Made by a program: the position numbers and the translations under genes
Assembly: GCA_025058315.1 (NCBI GenBank)
Contig: JANXET010000010.1
Location: 1-60,081 of the forward strand
Source: Candidatus Bathyarchaeota archaeon
GTDB lineage: Archaea; Thermoproteota; Bathyarchaeia; Bathyarchaeales; Bathycorpusculaceae
Length of the DNA stretch: 60,081 bases
Reading direction: 5' to 3'
The notes under the pieces: model-generated
What the model saw: the letters and a program-made list of their open reading frames with translations, nothing else
Database searches by the model: none
What the model was told of the DNA's origin: nothing
Shown here: in pieces, positions 2,505 to 26,810 of the stretch
How the letters are laid out: each line of letters opens with the position of its first letter
Position numbering within the stretch: position 1 is the first letter of the stretch

Positions 2505-2542
2505 GCCCTTAAAATAACAAGCGCGTCATAATCATTGGGGGT

Positions 2543-3670: not shown

Positions 3671-3698
3671 TAGAGCATTCCAGCCTGAGGTGTAGCTG

Positions 3699-3893: not shown

Positions 3894-3904
3894 GCTGCCA
3901 GCTT

Positions 3905-4843: not shown

Positions 4844-4919
4844 TCGATAAATGCCATACCCTGTTATTCTCTTGTTAGTCTTAAGTTTTAAACGTGGCTA
4901 CCTCTATTTACAAGTTGGG

Positions 4920-5531: not shown

Positions 5532-5534
5532 GGG

Positions 5535-6575: not shown

Positions 6576-6697
6576 ACCTCAGTCATCCTTTAGGTACTCA
6601 AAGAATTGCCCTCTAAGGTTTAAAATTTTTTGGCATTTGCTTCTCCATAATTTCGCCCCTGTAACATCGAAATTCTAATAAAGCAATATGCGGCATC

Positions 6698-7897: not shown

Positions 7898-7911
7898 AAG
7901 AGGGAAATCAG

Positions 7912-8601: not shown

Positions 8602-8604
8602 CCT

Positions 8605-9540
8605 ATGGGTCAAGCGTTCTCCAACCTTATGAAAAATATTGCTGAAGGCAAATTCGTCTACACCGGGGAGCTGGAGGCCCACAGATCCACTGATCTCTCA
8701 GAGGTTATACAGTGGGCTAAAACTTTGAAGGCTACGGGCAAAATTGTTGCAGCCAACGTTACGGATAATCCTCAAAGCGTTGGCGCCCTAAGCAGCCTAG
8801 TCACAAGCTACATCGTCCAGAGGGAAACAGGACTGGAAACTGTTTACCAGCTCAGATGTAGCGACAGAAACCGTTTAGCGCTTGCCTCAGACCTTTTAGG
8901 CGCCGCTGCCTTAGGATTAAAAAATGTTCTAGCCCTGACAGGCGATCACCCTAAAAAGGGCGACACTCCTGAAGCCATGCCCGTCTTCGATCTGGACGGA
9001 ACCCAGCTCGTCGAGTTAATCCACAAAATGGTCTACGAGGGGAGGGATCTGTCCGGTAACGAAATCCACGGGCCCCGACCCCAATTTAACATCGGCGCAG
9101 CAGCCAACCCTAACTTTAAACCCTTAGAAGCAGAAGTGTTAAAGCTTGAACGCAAAGCTGAGGTAGGAGCAGACTTCTTCCAAACCCAGGTGGTCTTCGA
9201 CGTTAACGTCGCCTTAGAATTCCTAGACGCCGTAAGCCACATAAAAGCCGCATTTTTAATAGGGATATTCCCGCCGAGGTCCTATAATCAAGCAGAATAC
9301 TTCGCTAAAAACGTTCCAGGAGTTCAGGTTCCAAAGGATTTTCTCGAAAGCTTCAAGAAGATCAGCGAGCTTCCCGACAAGACTGAGCGGCGAAGGAAAA
9401 TCGACGAGTACAACATCGAATACTTCGCGGACTTTATTAAACAAGTCAAGAAGAAACCAGTATGTAAGGGAATTCACGTAATGGCTGTAGGCTACCCTGA
9501 AGTAGTTAACCCCATAATAGAAAAAGTGGAGAAAGGCTGA
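8605..9540 (+). CDS. metF: 5,10-methylenetetrahydropterin reductase, MetF
   Basis: FAD-dependent TIM-barrel reductase converting methylene- to methyl-tetrahydropterin in the methyl branch of the Wood-Ljungdahl pathway. Seen are the catalytic Glu region VYTGELEAH, the NVTDNP segment, LALTGDHPKKGD (FAD/folate binding) and FFQTQVVFD typical of MetF. It is 311 residues, normal for MetF without a regulatory domain. The preceding metV ends in a strong GGAGGGTG ribosome site. The C1 carrier could be tetrahydrofolate or tetrahydromethanopterin; sequence alone does not decide. No Mer gene is in the window. Confidence 0.9.
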   Translation: MGQAFSNLMKNIAEGKFVYTGELEAHRSTDLSEVIQWAKTLKATGKIVAANVTDNPQSVGALSSLVTSYIVQRETGLETVYQLRCSDRNRLALASDLLGAAALGLKNVLALTGDHPKKGDTPEAMPVFDLDGTQLVELIHKMVYEGRDLSGNEIHGPRPQFNIGAAANPNFKPLEAEVLKLERKAEVGADFFQTQVVFDVNVALEFLDAVSHIKAAFLIGIFPPRSYNQAEYFAKNVPGVQVPKDFLESFKKISELPDKTERRRKIDEYNIEYFADFIKQVKKKPVCKGIHVMAVGYPEVVNPIIEKVEKG

Positions 9541-9626
9541 ACGCCTCTCCACAAGCCTTTTTACATAACAATCCCAAAAAACAGTGATAAATGAACATAA
9601 TTTTAATTTTTAGGCTGTGAATATGG

Positions 9627-10382
9627 ATGGATACGATTCAAATCATTGGAGTAAGAGGCTTGCCCCTCATAAAGCCGGGCGATAACCTCGCTAAACTTGT
9701 ATGTGAAGCGGCTGAGAAGCAGGGAACCCCAATTCAGGATGAGGATGTGATTGTCATCACCCACGTGGCTGTTTCTAAGGCTGAGGGGCATGTCGTAAAC
9801 TTAAACGAGGTTGAACCCTCATGGTTCGCGAAAGCCTTCGCAGAGCTCCACGATAAAGATCCAGCCCTAGTTGAGGTAGTTCTGAGAGAGGCTAAAGGAA
9901 TTGTGCGAATGTTCGACGGGAAAATAATAACAGAAACCAGACACGGCTTTATATGTGCAAACTCTGGAGTTGACAAGTCCAATGTTCCAGGCAACTACGT
10001 GGCGCTGCTTCCCAAGGACCCTGATGGGTCTGCTGAAAAAATCCGGCAGGAAATAAAAAGACTTACCGGTAAGGATGTTGCGGTTATAATATCTGACACT
10101 CATGGAAGACCCTTCAGGGAGGGTGAAATAAACGTGGCCATAGGCGTAGCTGGACTTAAACCCCTCAGAGACAGGCGTGGCGAAAAAGACCTGTTCGGTT
10201 ACACCTTAAGGGTTAAGCAAACTGCCGTTGCAGATGAGCTTGCATCAGCAGCTGAGCTTGTAATTGGACAGGCTGACGAGGGTATCCCTGCAGCAATAAT
10301 TCGCGGTTACAAGTTCATTAAGTCTGAGGAATCTAAAGCTCTGGAACTTGTAAGGCCGAAGGGAAAAGACCTCTTCCTCTGA
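9627..10382 (+). CDS. cofE: Coenzyme F420-0:L-glutamate ligase
   Basis: GTP-dependent ligase that adds glutamates to F420-0. Family features are the N-terminal IIGVRGLPLIKPGDNLAKLV, the DVIVITHVAVSKAEG segment, TRHGFICANSGVDKSNV, the SDTHGRPFREGEINVAIGVAG stretch and QADEGIPAAIIRG near the end. The 251-residue length is standard for archaeal CofE. It follows metF by 86 bases on the same strand and may be co-transcribed. Together with cofD it supports F420 production. Confidence 0.93.
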   Translation: MDTIQIIGVRGLPLIKPGDNLAKLVCEAAEKQGTPIQDEDVIVITHVAVSKAEGHVVNLNEVEPSWFAKAFAELHDKDPALVEVVLREAKGIVRMFDGKIITETRHGFICANSGVDKSNVPGNYVALLPKDPDGSAEKIRQEIKRLTGKDVAVIISDTHGRPFREGEINVAIGVAGLKPLRDRRGEKDLFGYTLRVKQTAVADELASAAELVIGQADEGIPAAIIRGYKFIKSEESKALELVRPKGKDLFL

Positions 10383-10460: not shown

Positions 10461-11516
10461 GTGTTCAATGTGTTGATAAAGGATAAGCGTCAAACCCCTT
10501 TCTTCCATAATAAGCTTCAGCCTATAGAGGTGAGGGTTCCGAAGAAAATTTCTGAGTTACTTTCAGAGATGGCTAGGACTGGTTTCCAGGGAAGGAAACT
10601 CGGCGAAGTTTTTGAAGTCTGGGAGCAAATGCTCAAAGATGACGTAGTAATATTCTTCGGATATGCTGGTTCCATGAGCACCACTGGCCAGTGGAAAATT
10701 GTTAATTGGCTCATAGAGAACCGCTTCATAGACGTGATAGTCTCTACAGGCGCCAACATTTCAGAGGACATTCTGGAGGCCATGGGCGGAACATACTGGC
10801 AAGGCCACCACTTCGTCGATGATCAAAAACTTTTCGAGCATAAAATAGACAGGTTTTACGACGTGTTTGCAGATGAGCTTGAGTATCGGCAAATGGAACA
10901 CCTCATAGCCGACTTCATGTGTAGCCTAGATCCCATCCGCAAGTATTCTTCAGCAGAGTTTCTCTATATGCTGGGCAGACACCTTCATCGGTTAGGCGTA
11001 AAAAGCATAGTGGCAAAAGCCTACGAGAACAAGGTGCCTGTTTTCTGCCCCGCCATCGTGGACAGCGGATACGGAATCGCTTACCTTCTTAATAGAAAAT
11101 TCAAAGAAGGATTCGACATAACCATAGACCAGATGAGGGATTTCGAACAAATCGTGGATGTAAAAGCTAAAGCCGCGGGGGAGAGCGGCGTAATCTACAT
11201 AGGCGGAGGAGTGCCGAAGGACTTCATCCAGTTAACAACAGTTGGACTTAGCTTAACCGAATCCGGGGGGGATCATGCCCACCCGCATAAGTATGCAATA
11301 CAAATCACTGTGGATTCGCCACAGTGGGGCGGACTTTCAGGATGCACTTTTGAAGAGGCCATAAGCTGGGGCAAAGAAGCCAAGGAGGGTAGAAACGTAC
11401 AGTGCTACTGCGATGCCACCATAGCTCTGCCCATTATAGCGCACGCGTTAGCGGAGAGGGTTAACAGGCGAGACAGGGTTCCAGACTTGTCTTGGCTGTT
11501 TGAAGGATTAGAGTAG
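10461..11516 (+). CDS. Deoxyhypusine synthase-like protein (divergent paralogue)
   Basis: NAD-dependent enzyme of the deoxyhypusine/homospermidine synthase superfamily. FFGYAGSMSTTGQ, STGANISEDI and YIGGGVPKDF form the NAD-binding pattern, and AISWGKEAKEG with ATIALPIIAHAL carries the Lys equivalent to the catalytic lysine of DHS. It differs from the canonical gene just downstream: residues after the lysine and the substrate loop (HAHPHKYAIQ) resemble the DHS-like group that may act on free polyamines. The start is a GTG at 10461. The function is therefore either a second DHS or a polyamine aminobutyltransferase. It is 14 bases from the next paralogue. Confidence 0.8.
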   Translation: MFNVLIKDKRQTPFFHNKLQPIEVRVPKKISELLSEMARTGFQGRKLGEVFEVWEQMLKDDVVIFFGYAGSMSTTGQWKIVNWLIENRFIDVIVSTGANISEDILEAMGGTYWQGHHFVDDQKLFEHKIDRFYDVFADELEYRQMEHLIADFMCSLDPIRKYSSAEFLYMLGRHLHRLGVKSIVAKAYENKVPVFCPAIVDSGYGIAYLLNRKFKEGFDITIDQMRDFEQIVDVKAKAAGESGVIYIGGGVPKDFIQLTTVGLSLTESGGDHAHPHKYAIQITVDSPQWGGLSGCTFEEAISWGKEAKEGRNVQCYCDATIALPIIAHALAERVNRRDRVPDLSWLFEGLE

Positions 11517-11529
11517 CCTGGAACCTCCT

Positions 11530-12450
11530 ATGGAAAAAGTGAAGGATTTCAAAATTTCAAAAGGCTTGTCAACGGATCAACTAGTCAGGCAGATGCGTGA
11601 AAGCGGAGGCTTCACCGCTAAACACCTAGCCGTAGGCGTAGATGTCCTCGAAGAAATGGTGAAAGATAAAACCTGCTTGAACTTCCTGTCTTTTCCCGCG
11701 TGCATTATGGCCACGGGCACCCGGGGTGTATTAACGGAGCTTGTGAGGCAGAGACTCTTCCATGTTGTTGTAACAACATGCGGCACGCTGGACCATGACC
11801 TGGCAAGGTGCTTCAGGGATTACTACCATGGCGACTTCTTCATGGACGATGCGGAGCTGCACAGAAGAGGCGTAAGCCGAATTGGGAACGTGCTTGTACC
11901 CCAGGAATCCTACGGACAAGTGATCGAGGAGAAAATGCAATGTTTCCTCAGGGAAGTATATTCTGAAGGTAAACGTGAATTGGCTACGTATGAACTGTGC
12001 TGGGAAATTGGGAAACGGCTTGACGAAAAATCGTTACTTTACTGGTGTTGGAAAAACCAAATCCCCGTGGTTGTTCCAGGGATAACGGATGGAGCCGTAG
12101 GCTATCAACTCTGGCTTTTCTCTCAGGATCACGAGTTGAAGGTGGATATTCTAAAGGATGAGCAGCTTATAAGCGACATGATCTGGGAAGCGAAAAAATC
12201 CGGGGCGCTCATCATAGGCGGCGGCATATCCAAGCATCACGTAATATGGTGGAACCAGTTCAAGAAAGGTTTGGACTACGCGGTTTACATAACAACAGCC
12301 GTTGAGTACGATGGAAGCCTATCCGGAGCCCGTCCAAGAGAAGCCGTATCATGGGGGAAGATACATGAGCAAGCCAAAACAATAACCATAGAGGCGGACG
12401 CTACCGTGGCCCTGCCAATAATGTACACGGCTCTACTTGAAAGGCTCTAA
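11530..12450 (+). CDS. dys: Deoxyhypusine synthase
   Basis: Transfers the aminobutyl group of spermidine to a lysine of aIF5A, the first step to hypusine. The canonical C-terminal signature is complete: YITTAVEYDGSLSGARPREA then VSWGKI, with the catalytic Lys, and ADATVALPIMYTALLERL. IIGGGISKHHVIWWNQF is the NAD/active-site segment. At 306 residues it matches archaeal DHS. It is the more typical of the two tandem paralogues. No aIF5A gene is in the window. Confidence 0.88.
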   Translation: MEKVKDFKISKGLSTDQLVRQMRESGGFTAKHLAVGVDVLEEMVKDKTCLNFLSFPACIMATGTRGVLTELVRQRLFHVVVTTCGTLDHDLARCFRDYYHGDFFMDDAELHRRGVSRIGNVLVPQESYGQVIEEKMQCFLREVYSEGKRELATYELCWEIGKRLDEKSLLYWCWKNQIPVVVPGITDGAVGYQLWLFSQDHELKVDILKDEQLISDMIWEAKKSGALIIGGGISKHHVIWWNQFKKGLDYAVYITTAVEYDGSLSGARPREAVSWGKIHEQAKTITIEADATVALPIMYTALLERL

Positions 12451-12642: not shown

Positions 12643-13425
12643 GTGAAGGTAGCTGTCTCCGGGAAGGGCGGTGTTGGCAAGACTTTAGTTTCTGCTGGTT
12701 TAGCTTATGCTTTAGCTAGAAAGGGATTTAAAACCATCGCTATAGATGCTGACCCCTCGCCGAATTTGGCTTTAACCCTTGGCCTGTCACCTGAAGAATC
12801 CCGTAGAATAGTGCCTATATCGGAAAATAAGGCGCTCATTGAATCTAAAACTGGAACTGGCTACAGCGGCGTCTACCGTTTAACCTTCACCGTCGACGAT
12901 ATTGTACGTGACTATTCTGTTCGAACACCATTCAATGTTAACCTGATCGTGATGGGGACGATTCGTTCGCCGGGTTCAGGCTGCACTTGCCCCGCAAATG
13001 CGGTTGTTCGCTCACTCCTCCATCATCTGGTGGTTGAACGAGACGAAGCGGTGATCGTTGACATGGAGGCTGGAGTTGAACATGTTGGAAGAGGCACAGC
13101 TCAGCATGTGGATCACATGATTGTGGTTGTTAACGCTAACCTCAAATCCCTTGAAATCGGCAGACACATACATGATCTAGCAGTTAAGGCTGGGATGAGA
13201 CGCGTCAGCGTTGTGGCAAATAAAATTGAAAATGAAACCCAGCAAGCTGTTGTGGAAAGTTACGCTCTAGAACACGGGTTGAAGATTTTAAACGTTATCC
13301 CGTACGACGCAAAAATTGCAGAGGCTGAATTACGCGGTGAAACCCCCCTAAAGTATGCTTCGGAGTCAACAGCAATGAAAGCTATAGAAACTTTATGTGA
13401 GAGGCTTCTGATGGAAAACGCATAA
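12643..13425 (+). CDS. cooC: CooC-type nickel-insertion ATPase
   Basis: SIMIBI-class P-loop ATPase that helps load nickel into the CODH C-cluster. The deviant Walker A is SGKGGVGKT at residues 4-12, IDADPSPNLA follows near 35, and GCTCPAN near 112-118 supplies the CxC motif that binds metal at the dimer interface of CooC. The start is GTG at 12643. It is the first gene of the plus-strand operon running through cdhE, which supports maturation of the CODH encoded downstream. Confidence 0.9.
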   Translation: MKVAVSGKGGVGKTLVSAGLAYALARKGFKTIAIDADPSPNLALTLGLSPEESRRIVPISENKALIESKTGTGYSGVYRLTFTVDDIVRDYSVRTPFNVNLIVMGTIRSPGSGCTCPANAVVRSLLHHLVVERDEAVIVDMEAGVEHVGRGTAQHVDHMIVVVNANLKSLEIGRHIHDLAVKAGMRRVSVVANKIENETQQAVVESYALEHGLKILNVIPYDAKIAEAELRGETPLKYASESTAMKAIETLCERLLMENA

Positions 13426-13469: not shown

Positions 13470-14237
13470 ATGAATCTTCTAGTTATCGTGGGCCGAGGCG
13501 GAACAGGAAAAACCAGCTTTGTAGCTCTCACAGCGAAATACTTCATAGAGGCGGGCGCCACCCCAATATTGCTGGTTGACGCTGACCCCGATCAGAACCT
13601 TGGCGAAATGGTGGGTGTAGATCTCCACGCGGCAGGCAAGAAAACAATTTCAGAGCTTCTGGTGGAAACCTTTTTAGAGGAGGGTGGAACCACAGTGGGC
13701 GTTCCGCCTACCAAACGCATTGAAAGCCGAATTTGGTCTCATGGCCTATATGAAGGCGTGGACTTCGACTTCATAGCTCTTGGAACAAAGTGGATCGAGG
13801 GGTGCTACTGTCTCCCAAACGCCGCGTTGAAGGGAGCGCTGGAATCGCTCACAAAAAATTACCGGTACGTGTTAATTGATTCGCCTGCTGGACTTGAACA
13901 TCTTAACCGAAGAATAACTTCCAGGGTTGACGACATCTTCGACGTGGTTGACCCTTCTAAGAAATCTTTTGATCATGTGGAAAGGGCTTACAGGATAGCT
14001 GTAGAGGTAAAAATCTCATTCAAAAACTTCTACGTGGTGGGCGGCTTCCGTTTTCCTGAAGCGCTGGAGGACCAAGCTAAAAGCCTCGTCAGGTTCAAAT
14101 TTCTGGGTAAAATAGCATACGATGAAAACGTTGAGAAACACGTTTTGGCCGGTGAATCCCTGCTGAATTTGCCCATTAACTCTCCGGCGTATGTGTCGGT
14201 TAAGAGAATAATGAATGCTGCAGGTCACCCCTGTTAA
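13470..14237 (+). CDS. Second CooC/AcsF-like maturation ATPase
   Basis: A paralogue of the preceding gene with VGRGGTGKT as Walker A (residues 6-14), LLVDADPDQNLGEMVG, and a CxC metal site in EGCYCLPNAAL near residue 113. In organisms with both CODH and ACS, separate MinD-like ATPases can serve the C-cluster and the A-cluster, so this one may be AcsF-like; the specific target is inference. A GAGGT ribosome site precedes the ATG. It lies 45 bases after cooC and 109 bases before cdhA. Confidence 0.82.
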   Translation: MNLLVIVGRGGTGKTSFVALTAKYFIEAGATPILLVDADPDQNLGEMVGVDLHAAGKKTISELLVETFLEEGGTTVGVPPTKRIESRIWSHGLYEGVDFDFIALGTKWIEGCYCLPNAALKGALESLTKNYRYVLIDSPAGLEHLNRRITSRVDDIFDVVDPSKKSFDHVERAYRIAVEVKISFKNFYVVGGFRFPEALEDQAKSLVRFKFLGKIAYDENVEKHVLAGESLLNLPINSPAYVSVKRIMNAAGHPC

Positions 14238-14346: not shown

Positions 14347-16710
14347 ATGGTGTTTCCTCCTATGGTAAATAAGAACCTGCTTGTAAAGGTTGATGAATTA
14401 GATTCAGATATGGGACTAATCAAGAATCTCCAGGTGTCAATTGGAAAAGTCACCGTTGACTCCTGGGCGGAGCCGATGGGTCCAACACCGTTTCCATCTC
14501 TAACCACTCTAAGAGAGTGGGACATGAAACTACTGCAGCGCTATAAACCTTTCTATGTTCCGTTCTGTGACCTTTGCTGTCTATGCACATTCGGGAAATG
14601 CGATTTAACAGGAAATAAACGTGGCGCCTGCGGTATAGACATGGCTGCTCAGCAATCCAGAATAGTGCTTTTAGCATGTTGCATCGGAGCGGCTACGCAC
14701 ATTGGGCATGCACGCCACTTGGTGGATCACCTGATTGAAAAATTTGGCAGAGACACCCCGCTTGATGTAGGCGGGTTAAACGTTCAAGTTGAAGCTCCCA
14801 TCACGCGTTTAGTCTGCGGAATAAAGCCTGAAACTCTGGGGGATCTTGAGGAGGTTCTGGATTATGTTGAAGATCAAATCACCCACTTATTGTCTTCCAC
14901 ACATACAGGGCAAGAGGGCAGCTGCCTAGACTTTGAATCGAAAGTTTTCCACGCAGGAATGGTGGATCATGTAGGACTAGAAGTTGCAGACATAGCCCAA
15001 ATAGCTGCCTATGGTTTCCCCAAGGCCGATCCTGAAGCCCCTTTAGTGGCTCTAGGCTATGGAACTGTGGATAAAACCAAGCCAGTAATTCTATGCATAG
15101 GACACAACGTTATCCCCTCTGTGGGAATCATCGACTACCTTAGGGAGTCAGGGCTAAACGATAGAATAGAAGTTGTTGGATTATGCTGCACTGCACATGA
15201 CCTCTCTAGATATTATTCTCAGGGAAAAATAATTGGCCCTATATCTTGGCAGCTGAGATTCATAAGAAGCGGTATTGCTGACCTAATCGTTTTAGACGAA
15301 CAATGCGTAAGGTGCGATGTTTTCGAAGAAGCTGCCAAGGTTAAGGCTCCTGTAATAGCTACCTCAGAAAAGAACTGCATGGGTCTGCCTAACCGTACAG
15401 CTGACCCTGTGGAGTCAATAGTTGAAGACTTGGTCAGCGGAAAAACGCCTGGGGTGCTAATATTAGATCCTGAAAAAGTCGGCAAAGTTGCAGTTGAGGT
15501 AGCCGTTAAGGTGGCGCCGCTTAGAAACAAAATGAAATCGCTACCGGAAATTGACGAAATCCTAGAAATGGTCATCAAGTGCCGACAATGTAACCTGTGC
15601 AGAAGGGCATGCCCGCAAGACCTCAACATTACTGAAGCGTTGAACGCCGCCATTCAAGGATCCCTCAGTAAGCTCGCTGAGCTGTATGATGCTTGCGTGG
15701 GATGTGGCCGCTGTGAGCAGGTCTGCCCTGTGGATTTGCCGGTGCACAGCTTCATAGTTAAGTCCGGTGAACATAAGCTTAAATCGGAAATCTACAAGTG
15801 CAGAGCCGGAAGAGGCCCAATTCAAGACGTGGAAATCAGAAAAGTAGGCGGCCCCATTGTGCTCGGCGAAATTCCAGGAGTTGTAGCCCTCGTAGGCTGC
15901 TCCAATTACCCGAAAGGCGGACAGGAGGTAGCGGAGATGTGCACAGAATTCGCTAAAAGACGTTACATAGTTGTAACATCAGGATGTGCAGCCATGTCAG
16001 CGGGAATGTACAGGAACGAAGAGGGCAAAACAGTGTACGAGGAGTTTCCGGGCGAGTTTACAGCCGGCGGCGTGGTTAATGTAGGATCATGCGTTGCCAA
16101 CTCTCACATAGCTGGCGCCGTCATAAAAATCGCAAACATATTCGCTAAACGTAACCTGCGGGGAAATTATGAAGAAATAGCTGATTACATACTTAACCGA
16201 GTTGGCGCCGTTGGAATAGCTTGGGGAGCCTACTCGCAGAAAGCAGCAGCCATAGCTGCAGGTTTCTGGAGACTCGGTGTACCCGTCATAGTGGGGCCTC
16301 ACGGCAGCAAGTACCGCCGCATGCTACTCGGAAGGGCGGACAGGGAAGAAGACTGGTACGTTTACGATGCCCGGACTGGTGAAAAAGTTTACGTCGGCCC
16401 TGTACCTGAGCATCTGTTTATAGCCGCCGAAACGAAAGAGGAAGCCATGGTTAAAGCTGCCAAACTGTGTATGAGGCCAAATGACACGCCAAGGGGCAGA
16501 TCTGGAAAACTCAATAATTATATAGACCTTCACAAGCGTTTCTACGGTACATTGCCAGACGACATCCATCTTTTCGTAAGAACTTTGGCCGATGTCCCCT
16601 TAACAATGAAGGATGAAATAATAAATGTGCTGAATGGAAAAGGCTGGAAAGAAAGACCCATCCCGGATCCCACTTTGCTTCCAAGAATGATCAGGAAGAA
16701 AATCACATAA
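14347..16710 (+). CDS. cdhA: CO dehydrogenase/acetyl-CoA synthase alpha subunit
   Basis: Nickel-iron-sulfur CO dehydrogenase subunit of the archaeal ACDS complex; interconverts CO2 and CO. Cys-rich residues 74-95 (FCDLCCLCTFGKC and the following GAC) hold the D/B-cluster ligands. Two ferredoxin motifs characteristic of archaeal CdhA lie at about 410-460 (CRQCNLCRRAC and CVGCGRCEQVC). C-cluster ligands are in VGLCCTAHD near 280, VTSGCAAMSAG near 540 and VGSCVANSHIAGA near 580. The 787 residues match archaeal CdhA. In methanogens cdhB follows directly; here three Nuo-type genes intervene and cdhB is fused to one of them. Confidence 0.95.
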   Translation: MVFPPMVNKNLLVKVDELDSDMGLIKNLQVSIGKVTVDSWAEPMGPTPFPSLTTLREWDMKLLQRYKPFYVPFCDLCCLCTFGKCDLTGNKRGACGIDMAAQQSRIVLLACCIGAATHIGHARHLVDHLIEKFGRDTPLDVGGLNVQVEAPITRLVCGIKPETLGDLEEVLDYVEDQITHLLSSTHTGQEGSCLDFESKVFHAGMVDHVGLEVADIAQIAAYGFPKADPEAPLVALGYGTVDKTKPVILCIGHNVIPSVGIIDYLRESGLNDRIEVVGLCCTAHDLSRYYSQGKIIGPISWQLRFIRSGIADLIVLDEQCVRCDVFEEAAKVKAPVIATSEKNCMGLPNRTADPVESIVEDLVSGKTPGVLILDPEKVGKVAVEVAVKVAPLRNKMKSLPEIDEILEMVIKCRQCNLCRRACPQDLNITEALNAAIQGSLSKLAELYDACVGCGRCEQVCPVDLPVHSFIVKSGEHKLKSEIYKCRAGRGPIQDVEIRKVGGPIVLGEIPGVVALVGCSNYPKGGQEVAEMCTEFAKRRYIVVTSGCAAMSAGMYRNEEGKTVYEEFPGEFTAGGVVNVGSCVANSHIAGAVIKIANIFAKRNLRGNYEEIADYILNRVGAVGIAWGAYSQKAAAIAAGFWRLGVPVIVGPHGSKYRRMLLGRADREEDWYVYDARTGEKVYVGPVPEHLFIAAETKEEAMVKAAKLCMRPNDTPRGRSGKLNNYIDLHKRFYGTLPDDIHLFVRTLADVPLTMKDEIINVLNGKGWKERPIPDPTLLPRMIRKKIT

Positions 16711-16735: not shown

Positions 16736-18178
16736 TTGGAGGCCAACATCAAAGAAGTGAACTTAACAATAAACGGAGTTCACGTGAAAGCTCAAAAGGG
16801 GACACCTATACTGGAAGTGGCAAGGCAGATAGGTGTTGAAATCCCAACCTTATGCTACATTAAAGGGCTATCACCTTACGGGTCCTGCAGGATATGCTCA
16901 GTAGAAATAACCACTGCAAGCGGCAGAAAAAGGATAGTTACTTCATGCAATTACCCTGCTGAAGAGGGCTTAGTAGTTGAGACTGACTCTGAAAGGGTTG
17001 TCAAAGTACGGAGAAACCTCTTAAGGCTTCTTTTGGCTCGCTGTCCCAAAGTAACTAGACTGAAAAATCTCGCTTCGCTTTATGGCTTAAACGAACCTGA
17101 CCTGTGGGTGGAAAACGACTCAGAAGACTGTATACTCTGTGGTTTATGCGTGCGTGTCTGCAACGAGTTAATCAGGGTTTCCGCCATAAACTTCGCAAAC
17201 AGAGGCATAAAAAGGACGGTGACAACCCCATATGACGAGTTCTCTGAGGATTGCATCGGCTGCGGTGCCTGCGCAATGATTTGCCCCACCGGATCAAAGA
17301 AGGTTCGGACGAACAATTATTCCGTTGTGAGGCCGTTGGCAGCTCCACAAAAAGACGAGAAACTAGGCGCATACATCGATATCCTTTCAGCTAAAAGCTC
17401 AATAGAAGGTCAAGACGGCGGAGTAGTTACTGCTCTTCTACTTTCAGGCTTAAAGAATGGAATGTTCAACAAGGCTGTGGTGGTTAAAAGAAAAAGCGGA
17501 TACAGAGCTGAAGCCGTCATAGCAAGCACTCCTGAAGAGATAATGGAAGCGAGGGGAACAAAATACTTCAGAATAAAAATAGTCCCGAAAATTAAAGAGC
17601 TAATCAGCAAAGGTGAAAGAAAAATAGCTGTGGTGGGCACGCCTTGTCAAGTAAGAGCAGCCCGTAAAATCCAGCAAATCCTTCAGCAAGAGCATCCTGA
17701 CCTTGATATAACAATAATTGGGCTGTTCTGTTTTGAATCTTTCGAGTATGAAAAACTAAAAGCTGAAACTGCACGTATAATGGGCGTCAACTTGGATGAC
17801 GCTGAAAAGACACAGATAAAGCGAGGAAAATTCATCGTGTCCATAAATGGTCATGAATACTCTTGTAAAGTTAAAGAGCTTGATCATGCAATTTCAAACG
17901 GCTGCCCATACTGCAGCGATTTCCCCGCGTTTTTCGCAGACGTTTCCGTAGGCGCTGTAGGAAGCCCTGACGGATATTCAACAGTAATATTACGAACGGA
18001 TAAGGGCAAGAAACTCGTGGAAAACACCTGCCTGGAATATGGCCGAGTAAATGTTGAAGAAATTACCAAATTATCCAGCTTCAAAAAGAACCGGGCGAAG
18101 GAAAATTTTGAACCTCTCATACGGGAAATCCAGGCTGTTCGGTTAAAAATTAGAGGGGCTGTTGGGGATGATGCCTAA
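16736..18178 (+). CDS. Fusion: NuoG-type iron-sulfur N-terminus plus FrhB F420 domain
   Basis: Residues 1-80 are a NuoG/HydA-type [2Fe-2S] domain with Cys 40, 51, 54 and 71. The segment that normally carries the His-Cys [4Fe-4S] motif (residues about 98-118) keeps only one Cys (ARCPKVTRLKNLA), so that cluster is probably absent. Two [4Fe-4S] motifs follow (Cys 132-142 and 173-183). Residues about 210-480 are an FrhB domain (GQDGGVVTALL, VVGTPCQVRAARK, NGCPYCSDFPAFFADVS) expected to bind FAD and F420. The start is a TTG behind a strong GGAGGGGAGG. It lies between cdhA and nuoE, so I infer it relays electrons between the NuoEF module, F420 and CODH. Confidence 0.85.
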   Translation: MEANIKEVNLTINGVHVKAQKGTPILEVARQIGVEIPTLCYIKGLSPYGSCRICSVEITTASGRKRIVTSCNYPAEEGLVVETDSERVVKVRRNLLRLLLARCPKVTRLKNLASLYGLNEPDLWVENDSEDCILCGLCVRVCNELIRVSAINFANRGIKRTVTTPYDEFSEDCIGCGACAMICPTGSKKVRTNNYSVVRPLAAPQKDEKLGAYIDILSAKSSIEGQDGGVVTALLLSGLKNGMFNKAVVVKRKSGYRAEAVIASTPEEIMEARGTKYFRIKIVPKIKELISKGERKIAVVGTPCQVRAARKIQQILQQEHPDLDITIIGLFCFESFEYEKLKAETARIMGVNLDDAEKTQIKRGKFIVSINGHEYSCKVKELDHAISNGCPYCSDFPAFFADVSVGAVGSPDGYSTVILRTDKGKKLVENTCLEYGRVNVEEITKLSSFKKNRAKENFEPLIREIQAVRLKIRGAVGDDA

Positions 18179-18647
18179 AGAAGACGTTGAAGCCAAAATA
18201 GACATGATAATTGACAAGTACGCTGGCAAAAGCGGAGTCCTAATACAGCTGTTACTGGAGATACAGCGCGAGCTAAACTGGGTTCCCAGAGAAGCCATCA
18301 AAAGAATCAACGAGCGGTTAGGGATCCCTGAAAGCGAAATATACCGCGTAGTAAGTTTCTACACCGCCATGAGTCTCACCCCAAGAGGCAAATACCTTGT
18401 CAGAGTATGTACTGGAACAGCTTGCTACATACGAGGTGCACAGCGGGTCCTAACAGCCGCTGAAAAAGCCATCGGGGTCAAGGCTGGAGAAACCACAGAC
18501 GACCTTAAGTTTACCCTGCAAACTGTAAACTGCCTCGGATGCTGCGCCCTAGGCCCCGTTGTTGAGATAAACGGGAAGTACTACGGCTTACTCACACCCA
18601 AAACCCTTGAAAACATCATATCAAACCTCAGAGGTGAATCTTCGTGA
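18168..18647 (+). CDS. nuoE: NuoE-type [2Fe-2S] thioredoxin-fold subunit
   Basis: The 24-kDa-like subunit of NADH dehydrogenases and electron-bifurcating enzymes. YVVSF-type helix-bundle sequence (EIYRVVSFYTAMSLTPRGKY) precedes the [2Fe-2S] ligands CTGTACYIRGA and NCLGCCALGPVV. At about 160 residues it is standard. The likely start is ATG 18168 or 18171; both overlap the end of the upstream fusion gene, indicating translational coupling. Its stop overlaps the next start by four bases. It pairs with the NuoF domain encoded next to form the NAD(P)H-oxidising or -reducing unit. Confidence 0.92.
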   Translation: MMPKEDVEAKIDMIIDKYAGKSGVLIQLLLEIQRELNWVPREAIKRINERLGIPESEIYRVVSFYTAMSLTPRGKYLVRVCTGTACYIRGAQRVLTAAEKAIGVKAGETTDDLKFTLQTVNCLGCCALGPVVEINGKYYGLLTPKTLENIISNLRGESS

Positions 18648-21115
18648 AGAAGCTTAGCTCTCCTTCAGATCTCGAAGAATTAAGGAATAAAATAATTGCA
18701 AGGAAAGATCCTAAAAAGCCCATTGTAGCTGTATGTGTAAGCACAGGCTGTCAGGCTCTAGGCGCCCAGGAAGTATTAGCCGCCCTCGTGGAGGAAATAC
18801 GAAAGCAGGGCCTGGAAGGCAAAGTAGGCATCCGCTGTACAGGTTGCCTGGGACTATGCGAGGGCGGACCCAGGATTGCTATTTACCCCGACGAAGTATT
18901 CTACTTCAAGGTTAAACCCTCAGACGTTCCGCTATTGGTTTCTAAGACGCTTTTGAAAGGGGAAATTGTGTCAAGTCTTCTCTACAGTGACCCCGTAACT
19001 GGCAAGACTGCTAAAAAACTCGACGAGGTTCCATTCTACCGCTACCAAACAAGGCTCCTCTTGGAAATGAACGCCCAAATCGACCCCGCAAGCATAGAAG
19101 ACTACATAGCGCTAGGCGGCTACTCTGCCCTTGCTAAAGCCCTGTTCAACATGACCCCTCAACAAATAATCGATGAAATTAAAAGATCTGGTCTTAGAGG
19201 ACGCGGCGGCGGAGGTTTTCCCACAGGGCGAAAATGGGAAACCACCCGTAACGCTCACGGCGAACCAAAATATGTCATAGTTAACTGTGATGAGGGTGAC
19301 CCTGGAGTTTTCGCTAACCGCGCCCTAATGGAAGGCAACCCGCACCTGATACTGGAGGGCTTGATAATAGGGGCTTACGCCGTGGGCGCAAGTGAAGGTT
19401 ACGTCTACGTCAGAGAAGAATACCCGTTAGCAGTAAAACACATGCAAATAGCAATAGAACAAGCTGAAAAATACGGGCTTCTAGGCGAAAACATCTTAGG
19501 CTCAGGGTTCTCATTCAAAGTCAAAATTCACAGGGGTGCAGGCGCGTTCGTATCCGGCGAATCAACCGCCCTAATGAACGCTATAGAAGGAAAAGTCGGC
19601 GAGCCTAGGCCAAAATACATTCACACCGCTGAGAAAGGTCTATGGGAAAAACCGACGGTTCTCAACAACGTGGAGACCTGGGCCAACGTCCCCCTAATAA
19701 TAAACAAAGGTGCAGACTGGTTCAGGTCCATGGGCACAAAGGAAAGCCCAGGCACAAAAATATTCACCCTCTCAGGCAAAGTGAAAAACACTGGGCTAAT
19801 AGAGGTTCCGATGGGAATAACCATAAGAGAAATCGTTTACAAGATAGGCGGAGGCATAAAAGGCGATAAAAAGTTTAAAGCTGTACACATAGGCGGCCCA
19901 TCCGGCGGTGTAGTGCCCGAGCAACACCTAGACACCCCTATAGACTTCGACGAACTTGTTAGACTTGGATCAATGATGGGCTCCGGCGGAATAATCGTCA
20001 TGGACTCAGACACCTGCATGGTGGACACTGCCCGCTACTTTATAGATTTTCTCAGCGGCGAATCCTGCGGCAAATGCGTACCATGCCGTGAAGGGTTAAA
20101 ACAGGCACGGCGAATTCTCGAGGAGATAGTTGCCGGCCGCGGAAAACCTGAACATATAAAAACTTTGCTGGAACTGGCTGAAACCATGCGGGATGCTGCG
20201 TTATGCGCTCTGGGCCAAACAGCCGCCAATCCCCTGTTGACCACGCTGCAATATTTTGAAGATGAATATTTCGCGCATATATTTGAAAGACGTTGCCCTG
20301 CTTTATCATGTAAGGACCTGTTAACATTCTATATTGATCCTGAAAAATGCTCCGGCTGCCACCAGTGTTACCGAACCTGCCCTGAACAGGCTATAGAGGG
20401 TGAACAAGACCAAATCCATGTTATAATACAAAGCAAATGCAACAAATGTGGTCAGTGTTATGATGTGTGTCCCCCTGAATATAAGGCAGTGCAGAAGATA
20501 TCTGGGGAGACACCGCCCCCAGTAATCCCGCAGGAGTACCGGTGGCTGAAGCAGCCGTGGCAAACCGCGGAAGTCACGCAGACCCGGAAGGCTTGGGTAA
20601 TGTCTAACCCTAACACGGTTGTGAATTTGATTAAAAAGGCGAACAAGCCAATAATTGTCATTGGGCACGCAATCCTGGAAAACGCGTATGCAGATAAGAA
20701 ATTAATCGACCACGTTGTTGAGCTAGCCCAGACAGCGGCGATTCCGATAATTGCCACACCCAACGTGACGGGTGAACTAATAAAGAGAAACTGCAAACCT
20801 GCAGCAGTATTGTCCCTAATGGAGATTGGCAGCCGCCTCGTCGACCGTGAATGGCTAGGGGTTGATGGAAATGGGCCGCATGACCTGGTTATATTCGTCG
20901 GCCTGCCATATTACATGAGCTACGAAATCATGTCGGCTTTGAAGAACTTCGCGAAGAACATTGTAACTGTAAACTTGGACAACATGTATAACCCGCAATC
21001 AACATGGTCTCTTCCAAATATGTCCACACGGGAATGGTTTAACTTCATCATGAGTATCGTTTCAAAAATTAAGGAAGTGAATGGGAATGTCCATGTTCCA
21101 AGATATACCTGTTGA
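18644..21115 (+). CDS. Fusion: NuoF flavoprotein plus CODH epsilon subunit (CdhB)
   Basis: A single uninterrupted 823-residue frame. Residues 1-110 are a thioredoxin-like [2Fe-2S] domain (Cys 31, 36, 65-72). Residues about 130-550 are NuoF: GLRGRGGGGFPTGRKWE (183-199, NADH/FMN loop), VNCDEGDPGVFANR, and SGESCGKCVPCREG (about 471-484) for the N3-type [4Fe-4S] cluster. Two ferredoxin motifs follow (about 569-610). From residue 653 to the end is CdhB, the ACDS epsilon subunit: KKANKPIIVIGHAILEN, IPIIATPNVTGELI, EWLGVDGNGPHDLVIFVG and SALKNFAKNIVTVN. The 171-residue tail equals a whole CdhB, and residue 653 is a Met. GTG start overlaps nuoE by four bases. The fusion ties a NAD(P)H flavoprotein to CODH. 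Confidence 0.9.
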   Translation: MKKLSSPSDLEELRNKIIARKDPKKPIVAVCVSTGCQALGAQEVLAALVEEIRKQGLEGKVGIRCTGCLGLCEGGPRIAIYPDEVFYFKVKPSDVPLLVSKTLLKGEIVSSLLYSDPVTGKTAKKLDEVPFYRYQTRLLLEMNAQIDPASIEDYIALGGYSALAKALFNMTPQQIIDEIKRSGLRGRGGGGFPTGRKWETTRNAHGEPKYVIVNCDEGDPGVFANRALMEGNPHLILEGLIIGAYAVGASEGYVYVREEYPLAVKHMQIAIEQAEKYGLLGENILGSGFSFKVKIHRGAGAFVSGESTALMNAIEGKVGEPRPKYIHTAEKGLWEKPTVLNNVETWANVPLIINKGADWFRSMGTKESPGTKIFTLSGKVKNTGLIEVPMGITIREIVYKIGGGIKGDKKFKAVHIGGPSGGVVPEQHLDTPIDFDELVRLGSMMGSGGIIVMDSDTCMVDTARYFIDFLSGESCGKCVPCREGLKQARRILEEIVAGRGKPEHIKTLLELAETMRDAALCALGQTAANPLLTTLQYFEDEYFAHIFERRCPALSCKDLLTFYIDPEKCSGCHQCYRTCPEQAIEGEQDQIHVIIQSKCNKCGQCYDVCPPEYKAVQKISGETPPPVIPQEYRWLKQPWQTAEVTQTRKAWVMSNPNTVVNLIKKANKPIIVIGHAILENAYADKKLIDHVVELAQTAAIPIIATPNVTGELIKRNCKPAAVLSLMEIGSRLVDREWLGVDGNGPHDLVIFVGLPYYMSYEIMSALKNFAKNIVTVNLDNMYNPQSTWSLPNMSTREWFNFIMSIVSKIKEVNGNVHVPRYTC

Positions 21116-22505
21116 GGTTGGCGTAATCTACGAAGGCGAGCGAATACGCAGAAAAGACATGTTCGTAGAGCTAGGCGGCCCAGACATCAAGGAGAAATTT
21201 GAGCTAGTGAGGATTAAAAATCCCGACGAGGTAGAGGATGGAAAAATATCCATCATAGGCCCGGACCTTAAAGAAATGGAGGAAGGAAAAAGTTATCCCT
21301 TTGGAATATACATTGAAGTCGCCGGCTCAAAGCTTGATCCTGACTTGGAAGGTGTAATCGAGAGGCGCATCCACCAGTACTGCAACTATATTGAGGGCTT
21401 TATGCACGTGAACCAGCGCTATGACATATGGATACGCCTAAGCAAGAAATCCTTCCAAAAAGGCTTCAATACATTTCAGTATCTCGGCAAAGTCCTGCAT
21501 AGACTTTTCAAAAGCGAGCTCCCAATAGTTGAAAAGATCCAGATAACCTTCATAACAGACCCCGATAAAATCAGGGAGATCTATCCTGAAGCCTTAAAGA
21601 TATACGAAGCGAGAGACGCTAAAGCAAGGGGGCTTAAGGATGAGGAAGTGGACAAATTCTACGGCTGCGTCCTATGTCAATCATTCGCCCCAACCCACTG
21701 CTGCGTCATAACCCCTCAACGCTATTCCAACTGTGGAGCCATAAGCTGGTTCGACGGCAGGGCCTCAGCGAGTATAGATCCGAAGGGTCCCGTTTTCGAA
21801 ATCGAAAAAGGTGAGCTTCTAGACCCCGTAAAGGGGGAATACTCCGGCGTTAATGAAGCTGTCAAGAAAAGGACGATGGGCGAGGTTACAAGAGTATGGC
21901 TGTACACTGCTTTCGGTTATCCGCATACTTCCTGCGGCTGCTTTGAAGGTGTTGCATTCTACATACCTGAAGTTGACGGAATCGGCATAGTTCACAGAGG
22001 CTACCCTGAAGTAGCTGTTAACGGTCTCCCGTTCTCTACACTGGCGGACTCAACCGCAGGCGGCCGGCAAGTAGATGGGTTCCACGGCGTCTCCATAGAA
22101 TACATGCGCTCTCCAAAGTTTCTACAAGCCGACGGCGGATACACCCGCGTTGTATGGATGCCTAAAGAAGTAAAGGAACGCGTTAAGAATTTCATCCCAG
22201 CGGACCTTGTGGACAAGATAGCTACAGAGGAAGATGCCAAGACGATTGATGAGCTTAAAGCTTTCCTTAAGGCCAAAAATCATCCAGTGGTGCAGCGTTG
22301 GAGAGCGGAGGCTGTTGTCGCCGAGACTACACCATCCGAGGCGAAAGAAGCTGAAGCCGTTGAGGCTCCAGCAGAGCCTGTGGTGACCGCTGCAACCCTG
22401 CCAATCACGGCAGGCGGCTTCAAAATAATACTCAAAGACGCAAAAATATACGCTAAGAAAGTGATAATTCGCACATTCAAAAGCGAGAAGTCCGAGAAAA
22501 GGTGA
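21087..22505 (+). CDS. cdhC: Acetyl-CoA synthase beta subunit
   Basis: Carries the nickel A-cluster that joins CO, a methyl group and CoA into acetyl-CoA. YEGERIRRKDMFVELGGP opens the protein as in other CdhC. A-cluster ligands are in FYGCVLCQSFAPTHCC (near residues 191-206), the RYSNCGAISW segment and SCGCFEGVAFY (near 283-293). The C-terminal tail GGFKIILKDAKIYAKKVIIR is also typical of archaeal CdhC. ATG at 21087 is preferred: the ribosome-binding-like ggaagtga ends six bases before it, whereas ATG 21081 abuts it. The start lies inside the end of the upstream fusion gene. Confidence 0.95.
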   Translation: MSMFQDIPVEVGVIYEGERIRRKDMFVELGGPDIKEKFELVRIKNPDEVEDGKISIIGPDLKEMEEGKSYPFGIYIEVAGSKLDPDLEGVIERRIHQYCNYIEGFMHVNQRYDIWIRLSKKSFQKGFNTFQYLGKVLHRLFKSELPIVEKIQITFITDPDKIREIYPEALKIYEARDAKARGLKDEEVDKFYGCVLCQSFAPTHCCVITPQRYSNCGAISWFDGRASASIDPKGPVFEIEKGELLDPVKGEYSGVNEAVKKRTMGEVTRVWLYTAFGYPHTSCGCFEGVAFYIPEVDGIGIVHRGYPEVAVNGLPFSTLADSTAGGRQVDGFHGVSIEYMRSPKFLQADGGYTRVVWMPKEVKERVKNFIPADLVDKIATEEDAKTIDELKAFLKAKNHPVVQRWRAEAVVAETTPSEAKEAEAVEAPAEPVVTAATLPITAGGFKIILKDAKIYAKKVIIRTFKSEKSEKR

Positions 22506-25796: not shown

Positions 25797-25997
25797 ATGT
25801 GCGAGTTTAAAGTAATATTGAACGGTGAAGAAGTTTTCAGGGATGTGGTTTACGCTAAAGCTGATGATGAAAAGGTTCTTGTCAGAGATGTCATAGGTGA
25901 AACAAGGGAATTCCCCAGCTGCAGGATAATTATTGTGGATGTAAATAATGCACAGCTTATCCTGGCAAGTTCAAAAGCTCTAAAACAGCGAGGTTAA
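25797..25997 (+). CDS. CooT-like nickel-binding protein
   Basis: A 66-residue protein beginning MCEFKVILNGEEV, the MC start of the CooT family, in which Cys2 is the nickel ligand at a dimer interface. The rest (VVYAKADDEKVLVRDVIGETREF and DVNNAQLILASS) fits the small beta-barrel of CooT/COG1532. In Rhodospirillum CooT acts with CooC and CooJ in nickel loading of CODH. Location next to the cdh operon supports the same job here, but the family is also widespread in methanogens with unclear roles. Confidence 0.7.
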   Translation: MCEFKVILNGEEVFRDVVYAKADDEKVLVRDVIGETREFPSCRIIIVDVNNAQLILASSKALKQRG

Positions 25998-26810
25998 AAG
26001 TCCTAGGGAAAGCCCAAAAGCCACTGGAAGAGGAAGCCCTGGAAAAATGCTTCTTTTCTCAAGAAGCTTAAAAGTTAAAAAACATCCTAAAAGAATGCCG
26101 ACGATTGAAGCTAGGCACGGGTATAAGCCGAAGTTCATAAGCATATGCCCGGAAAGCATCGAGTAAAAGGCAAGATCGCCAAGCCCCATCTGGGCATCTC
26201 TAAAAGAGAGGAATAGACCCCTAAGATGCTCAATTCCATCACGGGCTATCTTCCCTACGGCACCACGGTAAACAGCGAAGATATCATAAACCGCCAGAAG
26301 TAAAAGAATCAGAAATGCGCTTAGAGCCGGTATGGTTGCTCCTAAAAAGGCTCCAAGAGCTCCGCCTAAAATAACAATTAAAACATCACCTAACCTGCTG
26401 CGTGTCTTCAGAATTATGTGGCAGGCTATGCCAGCGATAAACGTGGATGCGGCGGCAGCAACCTTAAAGTCGAACACTGAAAACAACGAAAACACAGCTG
26501 ATAAGTATACAAGGGACAGGAGAAAAAAGGCTACTGCAAGTGCGGCTCCTTTCAGAATTGTGACAAGTTTTCCCCACCTAATCTTAAGAAGAATAAGTAT
26601 TATGGTGGCTCCTGAAGAAACTAGAATTACAAAGTAGAGGGCGTTTCCAATGGAACCTGAAGGATTATCGGGGAATGGAACAGCTTGCGGAGGCTGTATA
26701 TAGGAAACCTTAAGAATGTACGTGCAGAGGAACCCACAAATTAGGCTTGCTAAGATTGGCGCAAGATAAATGGGACTAGCCTTGAAGGCATCCCTTCCCA
26801 AGCCTTTCAC
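25980..26810 (-). CDS. Presenilin/signal-peptide-peptidase-like intramembrane protease (A22)
   Basis: Polytopic membrane protein of 276 residues with eight or nine hydrophobic segments. The A22 aspartyl protease motifs are present: LLAVYDIFAVYRG (YD motif) in one helix, MGLGDLAFYSML (GxGD) in a later one, and GLPLPVAFG (the PAL-like motif) near the C-terminus. These form the active site that cleaves substrates within the membrane. Its start lies about 35 bases inside the end of the upstream archaemetzincin gene, suggesting coupled translation. The last codons overlap the convergent CooT-like gene. Confidence 0.82.
   Translation of the reverse strand: MKGLGRDAFKASPIYLAPILASLICGFLCTYILKVSYIQPPQAVPFPDNPSGSIGNALYFVILVSSGATIILILLKIRWGKLVTILKGAALAVAFFLLSLVYLSAVFSLFSVFDFKVAAAASTFIAGIACHIILKTRSRLGDVLIVILGGALGAFLGATIPALSAFLILLLLAVYDIFAVYRGAVGKIARDGIEHLRGLFLSFRDAQMGLGDLAFYSMLSGHMLMNFGLYPCLASIVGILLGCFLTFKLLEKRSIFPGLPLPVAFGLSLGLLTSLF

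Follow-up and report, generated by a model that had tools for sequence, protein, structure and literature searches.

The Bfu family of flavoenzymes, as defined by Schut 2022 (PMC9304861), includes F420-Bfu (Type 1), in which a BfuA with an F420-reductase domain is joined by BfuB and BfuC. In the excerpts of that paper available to us (our statements on the other papers cited by PMC number likewise concern excerpts), Type 1 consists of two uncharacterised Methanosaetaceae sequences with ferredoxin as the low-potential partner and no link to carbon monoxide dehydrogenase (CODH). Codh-Bfu (Type 2), described in the same paper from four Firmicutes sequences (clade 49), has CODH genes among its bfu genes; a coupling of CO, nicotinamide adenine dinucleotide (NAD), and ferredoxin was proposed for it, with CO as a third substrate feeding through BfuA and ferredoxin kept. 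HydABC and NiFe-HydABCSL (PDB 8A6T, 7P5H, and 7T2R) resemble the BfuB and BfuC considered here in sequence and fold, and they share the hinge residues and the C-terminal two-[4Fe-4S] arm. A different kind of system is the F420-reducing CODH of Ca. Ethanoperedens thermophilum (alpha2-epsilon2-zeta2, PDB 8RIU; Lemaire 2024, PMC11493965), in which archaeal alpha and epsilon subunits are served by a dedicated FrhB-type F420 reductase, zeta. It is reached through a ferredoxin-like domain, with two [4Fe-4S] clusters, that docks where alpha meets epsilon, and the zeta gene lies in the genomic region of the CODH/acetyl-CoA synthase (ACS) genes. FrhB paralogues also lie beside CODH or NuoF-like genes in anaerobic methanotrophic archaea of group 1 (ANME-1), in two kinds of cluster: FrhB7 accompanies genes for CODH alpha and epsilon, and FrhB8 accompanies genes for NuoF and thioredoxin (Chadwick 2022, PMC9012536). 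Here we describe a CODH/ACS operon of a Candidatus Bathyarchaeota archaeon, on a 60,081-nucleotide stretch of DNA (contig JANXET010000010.1; the whole stretch is called the window below), in which an F420-Bfu-type module fills the place of the gene for the CODH epsilon subunit, CdhB, and its BfuB is fused to CdhB.

The Ca. Ethanoperedens enzyme sets the precedent of an archaeal CODH with a reductase docked where alpha and epsilon meet. Its zeta, however, is a separate subunit (a ferredoxin-FrhB protein of ~370 residues), and the available excerpts (PMC11493965) describe no NAD site, no NuoE- or NuoF-like parts, no bifurcation, and no epsilon fusion. In ANME-1 the two kinds of cluster are separate, FrhB, CODH, and NuoF-like genes are not all joined, and no CdhB fusion is mentioned in the excerpts (PMC9012536). 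Compared with Codh-Bfu, the operon described here has F420 at the BfuA position, CODH tied to the arm of BfuB, and a covalent link; compared with HydABC and NiFe-HydABCSL, the hydrogenase part is replaced by FrhB and the arm is extended by CdhB. The pieces, namely F420-reducing CODH, F420-Bfu, Codh-Bfu, and the ANME-1 FrhB clusters, are known. The initial annotation of this DNA knew of no description of such an arrangement, and our searches of the openly licensed literature likewise brought up neither a fusion of BfuB with CdhB nor an F420-Bfu integrated in CODH/ACS; a term search of the available text of three Bathyarchaeia genome papers returned no mention of the fusion. The operon reads as follows (window coordinates).

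14347 to 16710, + strand: CdhA, the CODH alpha subunit, with two extra [4Fe-4S] clusters (E and F); TIGR00314, 1215.7 bits
16736 to 18178, + strand: BfuA-FrhB, a HydA-type N-terminal domain ([2Fe-2S] plus two [4Fe-4S]) joined to an F420 reductase (FrhB); Fer2_4, Fer4, FrhB_FdhB_N, FrhB_FdhB_C
18162 to 18647, + strand: BfuC, NuoE/HydC-like, with a thioredoxin-fold [2Fe-2S] domain; PF01257, 4e-51; best PDB match HydC 8a6t_C, 6.8e-45
18644 to 21115, + strand: the BfuB-CdhB fusion protein, 823 residues, GTG start, no internal stop
21081 to 22505, + strand: CdhC, the acetyl-CoA synthase beta subunit, its start overlapping the end of the fusion gene; TIGR00316, 688.7 bits
22512 to 23726, + strand: CdhD, the delta subunit; TIGR00381, 463.3 bits
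23740 to 25170, + strand: CdhE, the gamma subunit; NF003195, 621 bits

With all five of CdhABCDE present and a CdhB of the epsilon family, this is an archaeal CODH/ACS. The gene order agrees with the initial annotation, which had nuo-type genes filling the cdhB slot, the last of them fused to CdhB. That cdhB is usually a gene of its own between cdhA and cdhC also proved correct: it is so in all 31 unfused operons with cdhA, cdhB, and cdhC, loci that were chosen for holding a CdhB match (a 32nd, L149, ends inside cdhB). The FrhB domain had been overlooked. Because this F420-binding domain is carried by the partner gene upstream of BfuB, the module should, to judge from its gene content, handle F420 as well as NAD. 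The fold of the predicted BfuA-FrhB model (pLDDT 74.1) is matched best in the PDB by chain 8riu_B, which is zeta of the ethane-oxidising archaeon's F420-reducing CODH. The FrhB domain of the operon sits on BfuA beside BfuB and BfuC and is thus not a zeta subunit. Cysteines of the partner subunits are conserved in all eight fused operons known to us: eight at positions 416-464 of CdhA, 12 in the HydA-type part of BfuA-FrhB, C319, C347, C405, and C408 in its FrhB part, and Cys 88, 93, 129, 132, and 133 of BfuC (numbered from stop to stop in each open reading frame, ORF).

The fusion is an end-to-end join, at residue 638, of a HydB/BfuB-type flavoprotein to a complete CODH epsilon subunit. Its features follow, all on the + strand.

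18698 to 18940, + strand: thioredoxin-like [2Fe-2S] domain at the N terminus of BfuB (residues 19-99; Pfam/NCBIfam), with C31, C36, C68, and C72 in 8 of 8 fused proteins
19178 to 19693, + strand: flavin mononucleotide (FMN)/NAD(H)-binding domain (residues 179-350; PF01512, 1e-45)
20015 to 20311, + strand: flavin-near ligand C458, B1 cluster ligands C475/C478/C481/C521, and the hinge (B2 or Zn) site H545, C551, C556
20330 to 20473, + strand: two-[4Fe-4S] arm (B3/B4; residues 563-610; Pfam/NCBIfam motifs and conserved cysteines), the proposed low-potential exit (PMC8880783)
20474 to 20554, + strand: native C-terminal tail of BfuB acting as a putative tether (residues 611-637), similar to tails on separate Bathyarchaeial BfuB
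20555 to 21112, + strand: CdhB domain (residues 638-823; TIGR00315, PF02552, PDB matches, and junction alignment)

Profile searches further place an SLBB domain (PF10531) at residues 373-423 and an NADH_4Fe-4S domain (PF10589) at residues 461-545. The single unbroken frame that had been claimed for a NuoF-type flavoprotein and CdhB is open over all 823 residues, and the same frame runs without stop or frameshift across the junction in eight genomes. The CdhB part scores 123.2 bits against TIGR00315 (residues 639-805; curated cut-off 101.2) and 93 bits against PF02552 (cut-off 21). Residues 653-823, which the initial annotation had read as CdhB, match solved epsilon subunits even on their own (9c0q_C, 1.5e-18; 3cf4_G, 5.4e-18); the domain does not begin at residue 653, as had been proposed, but at residue 638 (PWQTAEV). 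The AlphaFold2 model of the fusion is of moderate confidence (pLDDT 71.4), as is that of BfuA-FrhB, and its stretch 607-652 is of low confidence; both models were used for fold matches only.

The flavoprotein is of the NAD(H) type, as first annotated, but it belongs to the HydB/BfuB kind with a two-[4Fe-4S] arm and not to the NuoF of complex I. Against solved structures, residues 1-634 score highest with 9mqx_B (764 bits; by its title a bifurcating tungsten aldehyde oxidoreductase), 7t2r_B of NiFe-HydABCSL (754 bits), and HydB of T. kivui (734 bits). The best non-bifurcating chains are formate dehydrogenase FdsB (381 bits) and Thermus complex I (366 bits), so that bifurcating chains score about twice as high. 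The first 14 rows of a Foldseek search with the fusion model are HydABC, NfnABC, StnABC, and the bifurcating aldehyde oxidoreductase. In view of the twofold difference in score, the fold matches, and the arm, we reject complex-I NuoF or a plain diaphorase as the family label. The domain content is that of Bfu: BfuB with FMN (51K), SLBB, NADH_4Fe-4S, and C-terminal 4Fe-4S domains, BfuC, and BfuA with Fer2 and 4Fe-4S domains, where we take the Pfam names used here to be equivalent to the InterPro family definition of Bfu. BfuA carries an FrhB domain that replaces the H-cluster/hydrogenase domain, and the fused BfuB nests among F420-Bfu cassettes of the same class, both of which place the module with F420-Bfu; by gene content it is not Codh-Bfu, as FrhB occupies BfuA and CODH is linked to BfuB instead.

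In the alignment, all 8 fused and all 10 unfused F420-Bfu rows have C458, H545, C551, C556, the B1 ligands, and the eight arm cysteines, as do the 86 other aligned rows except one with gaps at the last four cysteines; the positions align with HydB of A. mobile, T. maritima, A. woodii, and T. kivui. C31 and C36 of the thioredoxin domain are kept in all eight fused proteins and in nine of the ten F420-Bfu rows. The flavin-near His/Cys set was reported to be absent from non-bifurcating homologues in the available excerpts of Schut 2022 (PMC9304861), and the hinge site has been modelled as a Zn hinge for a swinging C-terminal arm (Furlan 2022, PMC9499530). A control with 7 Bfu rows and 15 rows of arm-less NuoF-type relatives from the class (12 distinct genes, three being counted twice) gave two results. 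The eight arm cysteines occur in 8 of 8 fused proteins and in 0 of 15 arm-less relatives, while C458, H545, C551, and C556 occur in all 15. As far as these sequences tell, then, the hinge residues are non-diagnostic in this group, and the arm alone distinguishes the fused protein. The arm-less proteins with hinge His/Cys (loci L036-L038, L009-L019, and L186, from genomes of the class Bathyarchaeia) would either bifurcate too or indicate that the hinge mark is not diagnostic.

We propose that an F420-type, putatively bifurcating Bfu module is built into CODH/ACS with its arm tethered via CdhB to CdhA, a reading that we favour by a modest measure. BfuA-FrhB would exchange hydride with F420, and BfuB (through its FMN) with BfuC would exchange hydride with NAD(H). 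The terminal two-[4Fe-4S] arm of BfuB, proposed as the contact point for ferredoxin in free Bfu enzymes, would be joined by the short tail to CdhB, which would clamp CdhA. The arm would thereby be held near the distal (F) cluster of CdhA, the site where the ferredoxin-like domain of zeta docks in the F420-reducing CODH, and the low-potential branch would exchange electrons with the C-cluster and CO2/CO in place of free ferredoxin. The overall reaction would be 2 F420H2 + NAD+ + CO2 ⇌ 2 F420 + NADH + CO.

The placing of these parts draws on structural work. The C-terminal domain of HydB with B3 and B4 was named the prime candidate for electron transfer to ferredoxin (Feng 2022, PMC8880783), and the two-[4Fe-4S] ferredoxin-like domain of the F420-reducing CODH is anchored on alpha2-epsilon2, facing the distal alpha cluster, which was taken as a template for ferredoxin docking (Lemaire 2024, PMC11493965). 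Because the arm is proposed to face ferredoxin and the ferredoxin-like domain docks beside epsilon, the fusion would tie the arm to the subunit at the docking site. Physical docking of the fusion on CODH is likely. The initial annotation mentioned that CdhB, which in methanogens binds CdhA, has been suggested to mediate flavin-linked electron transfer, and it took the fusion to suggest that a NAD(P)H flavoprotein is docked directly on CODH. Biester 2024 (PMC11474084) describes epsilon as bound to alpha, with the D-cluster buried by it, and places the entry of electrons at the F-cluster of alpha, so that CdhB is better regarded as a docking piece than as a flavin-linked carrier.

The energetics were calculated for several assumed carrier ratios. 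We assumed standard potentials of -340 mV for F420, -320 mV for NAD, and -520 mV for CO2/CO. With F420/F420H2 at 0.1-0.01 and NAD+/NADH at 10-50, the low-potential branch reaches -449 to -528 mV; CO2/CO at 1000-10000:1 lies at -431 to -402 mV. The branch would therefore suffice for CO2/CO ratios of at least 1000:1. As to direction, Mer-like matches occur in 7 of 8 fused genomes, none above cut-off, MetF-like matches in 2 of 8, and Fwd subunit B lies above cut-off in 7 of 8, a mixture that does not decide between the two. The genome of the window also holds Hdr-like and Vhu-like hydrogenase genes, an acetate-CoA ligase-like gene, a NuoCD/FpoD-like protein, and Fwd. This content suits an H2-using or fermentative acetogen and does not fix the direction. 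The CO2-reducing, acetyl-CoA-forming direction is slightly favoured, at about even chances, and confurcation of CO and NADH into F420H2 is possible with a somewhat smaller probability. In its fullest form, which we put forward tentatively and regard as rather doubtful, the proposal is of a ferredoxin-free complex in which electrons of F420H2 would be split at the BfuB flavin to NAD+ and, via the arm, to the C-cluster, fixing CO2 to CO/acetyl-CoA, and in which the module with its own epsilon plug would have spread by replacing the resident cdhB. Genes of F420 biosynthesis lie in the window and were counted for the F420-linked reading:

3905 to 4843, - strand: CofD, F420 biosynthesis; PF01933, 3.2e-49
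9627 to 10382, + strand: CofE, F420 gamma-glutamyl ligase; PF01996, 6e-82

Several observations weigh against the proposal. The hinge residues are kept in the 15 arm-less relatives, which lowers our confidence in bifurcation and raises both a non-bifurcating reading and one of mere scaffolding. The CdhB part of the fusion model had no match among the 50 Foldseek rows listed. In all five pairs compared (by a small margin in one), the CdhB domain evolves faster than BfuB and CdhA, which could reflect looser constraint. At equal carrier ratios, the calculated reaction runs towards F420H2. Free ferredoxin may also reach the F-cluster. Finally, F420H2 was judged seemingly unable to donate for such reactions physiologically; bifurcation is not considered in the available part of that account (Chadwick 2022, PMC9012536). 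As for the fast change of CdhB, its identity to L021 is 61%, compared with 84-88% for BfuB and CdhA and 73% for BfuA-FrhB, hinting at an altered interface. In the two of five pairs with measurable dS, the ratio of nonsynonymous to synonymous substitution (dN/dS) for the CdhB domain is 0.068/0.820 (~0.08) and 0.179/1.395 (~0.13), and such low values indicate that the domain is under constraint.

The module could instead wire CODH to F420 and NAD in parallel, as an uncoupled, diaphorase-like, multi-acceptor enzyme. NuoEF-like modules of formate dehydrogenases, which are plain diaphorases, share its fold (Foldseek), and the failure of the hinge residues to separate the fused protein from its arm-less relatives is what such an enzyme would allow. 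The FrhB-type zeta on the CODH of Ca. Ethanoperedens does simple F420 reduction (PMC11493965). Yet the arm is part of the Bfu definition and is found in every fused and every F420-Bfu row, and in both sequence and fold the module is nearest to bifurcating enzymes; we consider parallel wiring unlikely, and bifurcation by the module is on balance probable. Somewhat less probable still is an ordinary F420-Bfu that works on free ferredoxin, with the fusion merely scaffolding it beside CODH for immediate hand-over. Relatives do have the F420-Bfu cassette as a separate unit, and 9 of the 11 loci read (6-19 kb each) contain no CdhA; the Ca. Ethanoperedens CODH still takes ferredoxin, eightfold slower than F420 (PMC11493965). 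Scaffolding alone, however, would not require the arm to be the tethered end, and the tether links precisely the proposed ferredoxin-facing arm to epsilon, beside the docking site of the ferredoxin-like domain in 8riu.

Very improbable, in our estimate, is a chance fusion of neighbouring genes without functional meaning, or an assembly join. The lossless, end-to-end join does resemble simple loss of a stop codon, and the CdhB domain changes fast, but the fusion recurs in eight genomes that represent five genus groups, with identities to the window of 63-80%, a conserved junction motif, and no separate CdhB found. We reject an assembly join in particular because of this recurrence, one of the genomes being a single 2.73-Mb contig (G163).

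Full fusions were found in 8 of the 256 genomes of the class that were searched: G000 (the window), G021 (80% identity to the window), G187 (74%), G166 and G162 (67%), G161 and G163 (64%), and G159 (63%), which fall into two family groups. The order CdhA, BfuA-FrhB, BfuC, BfuB-CdhB, CdhC, CdhD is the same in all of them. TIGR00315 matches once per genome, always in the fused protein, and the search found no second CdhB in these genomes, estimated to be 85-98% complete; in G163 the fused CdhB is the sole match on the single contig, and in G161 it scores 99.4 bits, slightly below the 101.2 cut-off. A sample of 398 genomes of the phylum, which recovered three fused genomes, all from the window's own family, held no additional fusion and none outside the class. 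Among the 80 of 376 relatives listed in a further scan, from which the window's own record may be left out, only the Bathyarchaeota records WUQU01000500.1 and JAOAJJ010000016.1 carry the fusion; these two contigs are already counted under G021 and G187, so that they give no independent evidence. Two apparent candidates were rejected. A 1241-residue open frame in G037 looked like a CdhB fusion, but CdhB there is a separate 182-residue ORF, and a match to residues 4-669 in G158 is an unfused BfuB of 643 residues.

The junction itself shows how little was lost. In the F420-Bfu cassettes of Bathyarchaeia, separate BfuB proteins have C-terminal tails like AVTKISGEPVPPPIPEEQRWIKK (L151), and AEPWQTAE (L029) is an example of how separate CdhB proteins start. 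The junction of the fusion reads AVQKISGETPPPVIPQEYRWLKQPWQTAEV; both proteins are thus joined almost whole, and the RW-x-K-x-PW motif is conserved in 8 of 8. In ten F420-Bfu cassettes with a full BfuB, the order is BfuC, BfuB, BfuA-FrhB; in the fused operon BfuA-FrhB comes first, which brings the end of BfuB beside cdhB. An unfused F420-Bfu cassette stands upstream of cooC-cdh genes on the same strand in 2 of 11 loci, directly in L157 and ~3 kb away in L149, an arrangement that looks like an intermediate stage. A CODH operon in G130 has a remnant of cooC2 as well as complete cooC genes, and the two are separated by a Bfu cassette that lacks FrhB and is encoded on the other strand (L158 7617-12723).

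In the BfuB tree the eight fused proteins form one clade (support 100) within a larger group of 17 rows (99) that also takes in nine cassettes of the same class; a group of L149, L157, and L151 is their sister with a support of only 80, and L055, the only Methanotrichaceae F420-Bfu row, is placed elsewhere on a long branch. The eight are also monophyletic in the trees of CdhB (100/97), BfuA-FrhB (98), and BfuC (100). The same clade is rejected by CdhA (approximately unbiased test, p-AU 1.2e-9), CdhC (1.2e-37), and CdhD (1.1e-6), a conflict on which we reject simple vertical descent of the fused operon. Because the genes of the module unite the eight and CdhA, CdhC, and CdhD do not, the module was probably transferred whole, bringing its own epsilon and replacing a resident cdhB at least once. 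An ancient fusion followed by a later return of separate cdhB genes would be an alternative; in the CdhB tree, the separate CdhBs are sister to the fused ones and not nested inside them, as freed CdhBs should be.

These trees were quick ones, apart from a careful CdhB tree, and the tests compared two trees each; the BfuC tree has long branches. The BfuB tree used 75 of 78 named loci, left out rows that lack the core or ferredoxin part or have 560 residues or fewer (among them L028 and L036-L038 and, from the 78 named loci, L081, L112, and L115), and had fused rows trimmed 40 residues past the start of the CPPEY motif, so that ~10 CdhB residues were retained. The CdhB tree left out L149, whose CdhB is cut by the contig end. 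G187 may hold a mis-binned contig, as its CdhA groups with that of the window instead of with L164 and L165, which belong to the same family as G187.

For archaeal acetogens, a central question is where CODH obtains the low-potential electrons with which it reduces CO2. A study of termite-gut Bathyarchaeia saw ferredoxin reduction with H2 as a critical step and left the source of F420H2 unclear (PMC7886697), and another considered acetogenesis driven by H2 unlikely, as a bifurcating hydrogenase is lacking (PMC11697101). If our proposal is correct, joining an F420/NAD Bfu to epsilon would, depending on direction, either supply CODH with electrons from F420H2 or use CO and NADH to form F420H2. 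CODH/ACS would then have electron bifurcation built in and might be driven without a free ferredoxin carrier, and epsilon would gain a use as an exchangeable docking plug. The tethered arm would also mark the electron exit of Bfu enzymes, which is still a proposal in structural papers.

Upstream of cdhA, the operon begins with two P-loop ATPase genes. We take both to be of the CooC type, the first with a probable role in nickel insertion.

12643 to 13425, + strand: CooC-type P-loop ATPase 1, adjoining cdhA in many related operons; CbiA 1.4e-23, Fer4_NifH 1.5e-13
13470 to 14237, + strand: CooC-type P-loop ATPase 2, paired with ATPase 1 in many relatives; AAA_31 7.3e-10

A separate Fer4-FrhB ORF of 346 residues (5535-6575, - strand) lies on the other strand ~6 kb upstream of the first cooC. 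Within 5535-9540 it is divergent from genes for an MvhD-type iron-sulfur protein, a MetV-like protein (DUF5981), and a MetF-like protein (+ strand), a cluster that possibly encodes an F420-linked methylene-pterin reductase complex; MetF-like matches occur in 2 of 8 fused genomes. Stand-alone paralogues of FrhB, which share 52-57% identity with the module's FrhB domain, are found close to CODH operons, fused or not:

L148 1700 to 2560, - strand: stand-alone FrhB paralogue
L158 13504 to 14262, + strand: stand-alone FrhB paralogue
L190 3047 to 3802, - strand: stand-alone FrhB paralogue

The CdhA of G037 (L191 6685-9756, + strand) is 1023 residues long, with an insertion of ~240 residues after CdhA residue 80. 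The insertion starts at a Cys and ends in VAQN followed by a Cys, and it looks like an intein within a Cys-rich CODH motif. In the window, two adjacent genes of the deoxyhypusine-synthase family, from different subfamilies, lie just upstream of the CODH operon (10461-11516 and 11530-12450), and a presenilin/signal-peptide-peptidase-like aspartyl protease is encoded at 25980-26810 on the - strand (PF01080, 4.1e-16).

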